Part shown: positions 14,657 to 17,635 of the stretch, piece by piece
Layout: every line of letters begins with the position of its first letter
Numbering within the stretch: position 1 is the first letter of the stretch
Assembly (NCBI GenBank): GCA_028817895.1
Contig: JAPPOQ010000033.1
Span: 186,001-250,000 of the forward strand
Length of the DNA: 64,000 nucleotides
Origin: Ahrensia sp.
GTDB taxonomy: Bacteria > Pseudomonadota > Alphaproteobacteria > Rhizobiales > Rhizobiaceae
Direction: 5' to 3'
Notes under the pieces: generated by a model
Database searches by the model: none
Seen by the model: only the letters and a program-made list of their open reading frames with translations
Told to the model about the DNA's origin: nothing
Program-made: the position numbers and the translations under genes

Positions 14657-14672
14657 GATCGCTCCTACCTGC

Positions 14673-14812
14673 GAATCAAGTGCCGAATCGCCAGAAAACG
14701 CTTCACGAATGTGACGGGCGAATCACCTGTGGACTCCCTTATGAATCAGCTTGAATCCGCTTGTCCAGACTCCGCGAATCACTTGCGCAAAAAAGGTATG
14801 GGACAGCGAGTC
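14673..14812. promoter_or_regulatory. Cluster of nine GANTC (CcrM) sites in the 5' region of the PleC-like kinase gene
   Basis: GANTC at 14673, 14685, 14720, 14732, 14743, 14753, 14768, 14776, 14808; the 8-mer GCGAATCA occurs three times (14671, 14718, 14774). Confidence 0.85.
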
Positions 14813-14832
14813 GCAGCTTAAGTTCTGCCACT

Positions 14833-17466
14833 TCAGGTCAAGCACCGCTCCACAATTTCACTCGTGTCGCGCGAAAGTCCGTCCGTTTCGGCGATGCGCT
14901 TGAGTGCGGATTGAGCGCTTTCACGGCGCGTCGGTTCAAAAATACGCCAGTTGTTGAGCGCCGTCAGCAAACGGGCCGCAAGCTGCGGATTGCGCGCATC
15001 CAGCGCCAACACCTGATCAGCAAACAGAGTGTGGCCGCGACCATCAGCCAAGTGAAACGCACTCAGATTCTGCGTGGCAAACGGTCCCAAAAGCGAGCGC
15101 GCACGATTGGGGTTCTCCAAGGTATAAGCCTCGTGGGTGAGCAATTGGGTAACTCTTTCAAACCCGGCCACACCCTCGATTGTTGCCTGAAGTGAGAACC
15201 ATTTGTCGACAACCAGCGGTTCCTGTTCAAAGCGCTGGTAGAAATCTTCCAACAGATCGGCGCTGTCGCCGGCGCCCTGTTGCAATCGAACCAGCGATGT
15301 CAGCGCGCCAAAGCGATCCGTCATCGTTTGTGCCGATCCATACTGATCTCGGGCGAAAGCGATGGCGGATGCATCGCCAGTCGCCAATATCACCGTCAGA
15401 AGCGCGTTCTTCAAAGCGCGATTTGCCGCGTTTGCCTCCGTCGCAGTTTGCAGATGCTTGTCGAGAATGTGGCCATCGCTCCCCAAACGGTTGCACAGTT
15501 GCACGAGTGCCGAGCTTCGCGCTTCGGCAAGAGCATCGGGATCAACATTCTCGCCAACGTATTGAGCAAGGTCGGGCAGGCTCGGCAGTGTCAGTATTTG
15601 CGCGCGAAGAGCCATGTCCAGCTTGTTGTCGAGTACCGTTCTGCAAACCGCCTCGACCAATAACTCGGTGAGCGGGCCGGTTCCGGCGGCTTTGCCACCG
15701 GTATTCCCCGCGCTGATCTGCTTCAGCAGCAACCCATTGAGCGCGGACCATCGCGCATAGGGATCACTGTCGAAACGCGCTTTGTGAAGGCTGTCTGCCT
15801 CGCTCTGATCGTGGCGAAGTGTGATGGGCGCAGAGAACCCGCGCAGCAAAGATACGACAGGGCGTTGTGCGAGGCCCTCAAACGTCACGGTTTTGCGTTC
15901 GCTGTCCAACAGAATGCAGTCACCACCCAGCAAATGAGTGTCGCTTGTCGGCTTAATGTTGTTGCCATTCGCGTCGATCAGGCCGAAGCGCAGCGGAATG
16001 ACCACAGGTGCTTTGTCGGGCTGACCGGGCGTTGCCGGTGTTTCCTGGGCGAGCTCCAGTGTCAGGCTCCGGCTGGCTTCGTCATACCGCTCTTCCACCG
16101 TGACGACCGGGGTGCCCGCTTGTTCGTACCACAGTGAAAACTGAGAAAGATCGCGACCGCTGGTTTCCGCGAAGCAGGCGAGGAAGTCTTCAACACGCGC
16201 GGCGTCGCCATCGTGCCGCTCGAAATACAGGTCGATCGCTTTGCGATAACCGTCGGGGCCGACCAGCGTGGCAAGCATGCGCACCAGTTCCGCGCCTTTC
16301 TGATAAACTGTCGCCGTGTAGAAATTATTGATCTCACGATAGCTTTGCGGCCGAACAGGATGGGCGAGGGGGCCAGCATCTTCGGGGAATTGCGTGGCCT
16401 TCAGGCGCCTGACTTGCTCGATACGCTGCACGGGACGCGAGCGCATGTCGGCTGAGAATTCCTGGTCACGATAGACCGTCAACCCTTCCTTCAAACACAG
16501 TTGGAACCAGTCCCGACAGGTGATGCGATTCCCGGTCCAGTTGTGGAAATACTCATGCGCAACAATGGCTTCGATGTTCTCGAAATCGGTATCAGTCGCC
16601 AGTGTTTCGTCCGCCAGCACATATTTGTCGTTGAAGATGTTGAGGCCCTTGTTTTCCATGGCCCCCATATTGAAGTCCGAAACGGCAACGATGTTGAAAA
16701 CGTCGAGGTCGTACTCGCGGCCATATGTCTCTTCATCCCAACGCATGGACCGCTTCAACGCACCCATGGCGTAAGTGGCCAAGGACGCTTTGCCCTTCTC
16801 GACATAGATTGCGAGATCAACGTTGCGTCCGGATGCTGTGGTGAAACCGTCCGTCAGAAGGTCGAGACTACCCGCCACCAGCGCAAAGAGGTAGCAAGGC
16901 TTGGGATGCGGATCATGCCATTCGGCAAAGTGGCGATTGCCAGCAAGCTGCCCCCGATCACCAGGATTGCCGTTTGACAGCAATATCGGGCAATCGTCAC
17001 GGTCCGCTTCAAGGCGGACACGATAGGTTGCCAACACGTCCGGGCGGTCGAGGAAATAAGTGATACGGCGAAAACCTTCCGCCTCGCATTGCGTGCAGAA
17101 GTTGCCGCCGCTTCGATACAGCCCCATCAGCTTGGTGTTGGCCTGTGGCGCAATTTGCGTCTCGATTCTGATCTTGAAGCGCTCATCCTTCGGTAGGGTT
17201 GAGATGGTCAGACCGTCTTCATCCGTCTCATAGACCAGTCCGTCTTTATCGATACCCCGCACACTGAGTGACCGCAGGGTCAATTCATCGCCATCCAGCC
17301 GCAGTGGCGTGTCGACAACAGTGTTGGGGTCGCGCCGAACGCTAAGCGTGGAGGTCACGAGTGTCGCATCCGGGTGGAGATCAAAGGTCAACTTGACATC
17401 ATCAATCCAGTAGGGCGGCGGCGAGTAGTCCTTCAGGCGGATAAGGGGGGCTGTTTGTGTGCGCAT
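14833..17466 (-). CDS. pepN: Aminopeptidase N (M1 family)
   Basis: 'GAMENKGLNIFN', zinc motif 'HEYFHNWTGNRIT'; start at the MRTQTAPLIRL methionine. Confidence 0.96.
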   Translation of the reverse strand: MRTQTAPLIRLKDYSPPPYWIDDVKLTFDLHPDATLVTSTLSVRRDPNTVVDTPLRLDGDELTLRSLSVRGIDKDGLVYETDEDGLTISTLPKDERFKIRIETQIAPQANTKLMGLYRSGGNFCTQCEAEGFRRITYFLDRPDVLATYRVRLEADRDDCPILLSNGNPGDRGQLAGNRHFAEWHDPHPKPCYLFALVAGSLDLLTDGFTTASGRNVDLAIYVEKGKASLATYAMGALKRSMRWDEETYGREYDLDVFNIVAVSDFNMGAMENKGLNIFNDKYVLADETLATDTDFENIEAIVAHEYFHNWTGNRITCRDWFQLCLKEGLTVYRDQEFSADMRSRPVQRIEQVRRLKATQFPEDAGPLAHPVRPQSYREINNFYTATVYQKGAELVRMLATLVGPDGYRKAIDLYFERHDGDAARVEDFLACFAETSGRDLSQFSLWYEQAGTPVVTVEERYDEASRSLTLELAQETPATPGQPDKAPVVIPLRFGLIDANGNNIKPTSDTHLLGGDCILLDSERKTVTFEGLAQRPVVSLLRGFSAPITLRHDQSEADSLHKARFDSDPYARWSALNGLLLKQISAGNTGGKAAGTGPLTELLVEAVCRTVLDNKLDMALRAQILTLPSLPDLAQYVGENVDPDALAEARSSALVQLCNRLGSDGHILDKHLQTATEANAANRALKNALLTVILATGDASAIAFARDQYGSAQTMTDRFGALTSLVRLQQGAGDSADLLEDFYQRFEQEPLVVDKWFSLQATIEGVAGFERVTQLLTHEAYTLENPNRARSLLGPFATQNLSAFHLADGRGHTLFADQVLALDARNPQLAARLLTALNNWRIFEPTRRESAQSALKRIAETDGLSRDTSEIVERCLT

Positions 17467-17635
17467 TTTGCTCGTGCCGGTCTGTGCATCTATCGGCGTT
17501 CTATGCCAGAGGTCGTACGCTCGTTCCATCATCTTGGACTGCGGGCGAGCGTTTTAGCGAAGAGGGCAGGGTGCGCATGTCGCAAGACGGCGCTATGCTT
17601 CGGCAACTCCAAAAGATGCGATGCGAGACCCGCTT

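Follow-up and report, generated by a model that had tools for sequence, protein, structure and literature searches.

The 176-bp gap upstream of a PleC-like kinase gene contains nine GANTC sites, and it is probably a CcrM-methylated, GcrA-activated pleC promoter whose layout is kept across the order Hyphomicrobiales and has undergone a lineage-specific expansion to nine sites. We infer promoter identity, methylation, GcrA binding and timing alike. The gap lies in the 64-kb stretch of DNA analyzed here (the window), and its features are given in Table 1.

Table 1. Features of the pepN-kinase gap and its two borders (window coordinates; B+n, distance in bp from site B)
Feature	Position	Strand	Remarks
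PleC-like sensor histidine kinase, 791 aa	12281..14656	-	two PAS folds, HisKA, HATPase_c
AGGAG, likely ribosome-binding site of the kinase	14662..14666	-	seen directly in the sequence
GANTC (TGATTCG)	14673..14677	-	near start codon; matches YGAKTCG
GANTC (CGATTCG)	14685..14689	-	near start codon; matches YGAKTCG
GANTC (TGATTCG)	14720..14724	-	B+23; matches the GcrA motif YGAKTCG
GANTC (GAGTC)	14732..14736	-	B+11
Site B, GATTC	14743..14747	-	10 bp after A; most conserved site; approximately at the expected -10 position
Site A, GATTC on the kinase strand	14753..14757	-	10 bp from start of TGGACA; conserved, N clade-dependent
TGGACA, -35-like box	14762..14767	-	conserved along with A, B and C in 75/97 orthologous gaps
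GANTC (GAGTC)	14768..14772	-	abuts the -35-like box; placed likewise in 4 other orthologs
GANTC (TGATTCG)	14776..14780	-	upstream; matches YGAKTCG
GANTC	14808..14812	.	farthest upstream; matches YGAKTCG on the + strand
pepN, aminopeptidase N	14833..17532	-	upstream neighbour, same strand as the kinase; TIGR02414 above cut-off

The gene context given in the initial annotation is correct, with the kinase start and the pepN stop, both on the minus strand, bordering the gap. The kinase has HisKA and HATPase domains together with PAS domains and occupies a conserved locus adjoining pepN, as expected of a PleC; orthologs with E < 1e-100 were found in 51 of 60 relatives, and pepN followed by the kinase is the usual order in Hyphomicrobiales. 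NCBIfam holds no PleC model, its nearest to the kinase being DivJ, below cut-off, and a PDB search returned general histidine-kinase cores only. By locus context (synteny) and similarity we regard the kinase as a putative PleC ortholog; in S. meliloti, pleC (SMc02369) is essential (PMC4254191). Two small genomes placed in the same family, G014 (0.9 Mb) and G020 (1.1 Mb), were without a full-length kinase ortholog, and G014, which is placed in the source genus, may perhaps be misassigned.

All nine GANTC sites listed in the initial annotation are present, in DNA where this sequence is scarce: the window contains 112 GANTC as against a shuffle mean of 307.7 (sd 17.6), or 1.75 per kb versus about 4.8 expected. 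At this local background some 0.24 sites are expected per 140 bp, and the Poisson chance of at least nine is about 3e-12, or about 1e-9 with the intergenic rate doubled. The excess claimed earlier against about 0.5 expected sites is therefore borne out, but that figure was generous because GANTC is depleted in the DNA of the window. When the full 3.54-Mb assembly was scanned for triples of GANTC no more than 30 bp apart, about 30 other places were retrieved, each with 3-4 chained sites; the pepN-kinase gap holds the only longer chain, and no other region in this triple-pattern scan reaches a similar density. The nine-site cluster is not random.

We compared the gap with its orthologs in a set composed of the pepN loci of named genomes and the kinase loci from the 60 relatives. 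At least three GANTC occurred in 68 of the 72 gaps for which both borders could be placed, these being counts that take in as much as about 150 bp coding for the kinase N terminus; once that part was trimmed, GANTC density in the orthologous gaps was 21.5 per kb, versus 1.34 per kb elsewhere in the same loci. The sites recur at a characteristic spacing, two GANTC 10 or 11 bp apart and a third 14-16 bp further, and form a core element of TGGACA-N4-GANTC(A)-N5/6-GATTC(B)-N9/10-GATTC(C), usually followed by G. A scored search found this core with at most three mismatches in 75/97 orthologous gaps and without any mismatch in 39/97, versus 0/97 with at most three mismatches in reversed sequences, where the best score had four. 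The box and sites A and B had near-maximal column information, C was fairly informative, and most flanking columns held 0.0-0.5 bit, even though many of the kinases share no more than about 45% identity. Since the core columns are informative while most of their flanks are not, the core is not due to shared ancestry alone. The cluster is thus kept at the pepN-kinase gap in relatives, with a core layout fixed across the order.

The genome under study keeps the -35-like box, A and B, and lacks C at its usual place (B+14 to B+16), where the sites at 14732 and 14720 stand instead; a further five flanking GANTC are extra. Those at 14776, 14808, 14685 and 14673 are additions of this lineage, and the added sites are not conserved in position. 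With nine sites this gap is at the top of the range, equalled by two Brucella-type gaps in which the sites were counted over a longer stretch.

The core is also largely specific to this one gene. TGGACA followed by A and B was found in 19/37 relatives, in 21 places, 18 of which lie directly upstream of the kinase ortholog, and the reversed control yielded none. In an even sample of the order, 68/298 genomes matched (70 places), with 28 of 30 examined loci upstream of a kinase ortholog, while a class-wide sample gave matches in 4/285 genomes outside Hyphomicrobiales. Variants such as TAGACA or a lost A site were counted in the mismatch search of the 97 gaps only, and these whole-genome scans hence refer to the exact pattern. 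Exact TGGACA + A + B is a minority form within the order that occurs about once per genome having it, almost always upstream of the kinase, and where present it marks the putative kinase promoter.

The three sites vary in different ways. Site A appears as GAATC, GATTC, GACTC or GAGTC with GA and TC constant, and the use of all four bases at N is as expected for a site of the GANTC methylase. Site B is GATTC in 61/64 cores. Site C is no longer GANTC in 12/64 cores, of which 10 retain TTC, so that a different cause must lie behind the conservation of part of C. C sites without GA (GGTTC, TATTC, CATTC) but with TTC kept were seen at L038, L042, L043, L050, L052, L053, L028 and L131, and loci with a degenerate C often have another GANTC 34-35 bp after B, as if compensating. 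Neither the near-constancy of B nor the TTC kept at C is explained by methylation alone; both point to bases beyond GANTC being recognized at these two sites, whether by RNA polymerase, by GcrA or by some other regulator.

Both a CcrM-type methylase (N6_N4_Mtase + RAMA) and GcrA (PF07750, E 9.8e-50) are encoded in the source genome, so that GANTC in the promoter region, conservation of the sites at orthologs and the presence of ccrM and gcrA, as expected of a CcrM/GcrA promoter, are found together. Among orthologs, YGAKTCG, the extended context proposed for GcrA, surrounds A in 45/58 and C in 41/52 cases, as compared to a background of 158/1200 (13%), and B in 1/62; in this gap it is found at five of the nine sites, A and B not among them. 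In Brevundimonas, GcrA does not prefer an extended motif (PMC7987155); for Rhizobiales, the same paper names popZ and not pleC, and another counted GANTC upstream of cell-cycle genes without drawing a conclusion (PMC2877005). Upstream of gcrA itself, this genome carries a group of three GANTC at a distance of about 190-240 bp (G000 contig C46:199320-199374, locus L157), and one further GANTC lies near the gcrA start.

The closest known parallel is the pleC promoter of Caulobacter crescentus (Fioravanti et al. 2013, PMC3667746), which likewise combines the same kind of gene with a promoter GANTC, GcrA and CcrM: PpleC-lacZ becomes less active when GcrA is depleted or when GANTC is mutated, and GcrA binds at pleC in a CcrM-dependent manner. 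The putative promoter described here differs in having nine sites, with the box and three GANTC at fixed distances of 10/11 and 25 bp, a contrast that rests on the class-wide scan and on two Hyphomonas (Caulobacterales) gaps, in which the core layout was not seen. GcrA-dependent promoters of the mipZ, podJ and ftsZ type also carry GANTC inside the presumed core promoter, and the GcrA context at the A and C sites of relatives follows the same pattern; A and B of this genome, in contrast, are without the full extended context, and 4-5 GANTC fall here within 50 bp and nine within 140 bp. For comparison, among the 96 Caulobacter cell-cycle starts with a GANTC inside 50 bp, just 11 have two or more (PMC4287350). 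In the same study, a GANTC placed between -10 and -35 is the mark of promoters that are switched on 40-60 min into the cycle. The TGGACA box and the spacing fit a position of A between -35 and -10, but sigma-70 promoter and terminator scans found nothing, including no -10 hexamer. We read the gap as a CcrM/GcrA pleC promoter because A falls in that interval if TGGACA is the -35, because both A and C of the conserved core have the context proposed for GcrA, and because of the Caulobacter precedent. The absence of any similarly dense region, the conserved core and the presence of ccrM and gcrA make methylation-tuned transcription of the kinase likely.

Under this model, the gap would be the promoter region of the PleC ortholog, a phosphatase/kinase of DivK in the CtrA pathway. 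TGGACA would serve as the -35 of a weak sigma-70 promoter, with A in the spacer and B at about -10, and in most relatives C would lie near the transcription start. CcrM would methylate A, B and C, and the methylated or hemimethylated DNA would recruit or retain GcrA with sigma-70 RNA polymerase, so that pleC transcription would answer the passage of the replication fork and remethylation in late S phase. The two sites replacing C and the five flanking ones should then offer more m6A marks usable by GcrA.

Alternatively, the block may be the operator of a sequence-specific regulator, for example of the OmpR type, binding GATTC direct repeats 10-11 bp apart, with the CcrM sites incidental. The A-B distance of 9-11 bp is compatible with direct repeats of the OmpR type, and the near-constancy of B and the TTC mostly kept at C would agree with such an operator. 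However, A takes all four N bases with GA and TC fixed, the GcrA context is present at A and C, further GANTC with other N bases (GAGTC, GACTC) accumulate in the same gap, and the gap-wide GANTC density, 16x background, is beyond the need of one operator; we therefore consider this explanation unlikely.

The sites might instead block or delay pleC, if the promoter is repressed when fully methylated or when shielded by a protein such as MucR, and is released by the passing fork. Both C. crescentus and S. meliloti have hypomethylated GANTC sites shielded by MucR (PMC5172544), and in Caulobacter a GANTC outside the -35/-10 region goes with low mid-cycle expression (PMC4287350). We find repression quite improbable, since A is placed between the -35-like box and the expected -10, as in the activated class, and Caulobacter pleC is activated through its GANTC (PMC3667746).

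A chance origin or mutational hot spot is very improbable, and for the core, which nothing favours attributing to chance, it is refuted by uniqueness in the genome and conservation across the order; only the additional sites of this lineage, with their unconserved positions, speak for it, and the five additions may in part be neutral. That the cluster is an origin-like or repABC-like element for replication or partition is hardly credible: GANTC clusters have been reported at repABC loci (PMC11514494), but the neighbours here are chromosomal housekeeping genes (degP-like, response regulator, kinase, glnE, kinase, pepN, pgi-like) with no adjacent repA, repB or repC, and the conservation centers on a promoter-like box tied to one gene.

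The initial annotation also proposed that the sites might be phased along one face of the helix, and this is not supported: the A-B distance is 9-11 bp, but C follows A by 24-26 bp (about 2.4 turns), and all nine sites together show weak periodicity (p ~0.03 with the period left free, the best lying within 9.8-11.2). RNA structure was rejected, since the fold did not outdo shuffled sequences (z -0.57) and Rfam offered no credible family; tRNAs were absent from the 64-kb window. The cluster is no duplicated unit either, as a search for tandem and direct repeats yielded nothing beyond short partial ones around GCGAATCA.

Control of pleC by CtrA has been studied in related bacteria. In S. meliloti, pleC is bound by CtrA yet unchanged on CtrA depletion (PMC4433202), which leaves room for another activator, and according to work cited in PMC2877005 the Brucella pleC promoter is bound by CtrA as well. 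These promoters belong to the same gene as the one described here, and a CtrA-like box is present in the gap of many genera: TTAA-N7-TTAA is exact in 7/97 gaps (L034, L045, L050, L060, L124, L134 and L143) and has at most one mismatch in 42/97. No such box with at most one mismatch was found in this gap or in the gaps of its genus. Tentatively, Hyphomicrobiales pleC may possess its own fixed multi-mark promoter, in which several GANTC marks, located in the spacer, at the -10 and at the start, act as one combined signal and the number of methylated sites sets how sharply transcription follows the fork, lineages without a CtrA box having replaced it with more methylation sites; we regard this extension as possible but doubtful.

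That pleC is a GcrA/CcrM target is already known from Caulobacter. In the literature that we searched, mostly without subscription papers, we found neither a fixed multi-site layout across Hyphomicrobiales nor a nine-site promoter, nor any paper in which GANTC occurs together with the phrase "pleC promoter", although an earlier description is possible. PleC heads the DivK-CtrA switch. GcrA regulons have been described as extensively rewired from one species to another, and the cell-cycle promoters of S. meliloti have, to our knowledge, shown no enrichment for GANTC; one promoter whose layout persists throughout an order would be a clear exception. GANTC-based control of pleC could also explain why S. 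meliloti pleC expression is unchanged on CtrA depletion, and the core of the putative pleC promoter offers a concrete target for studying epigenetic timing outside Caulobacter.
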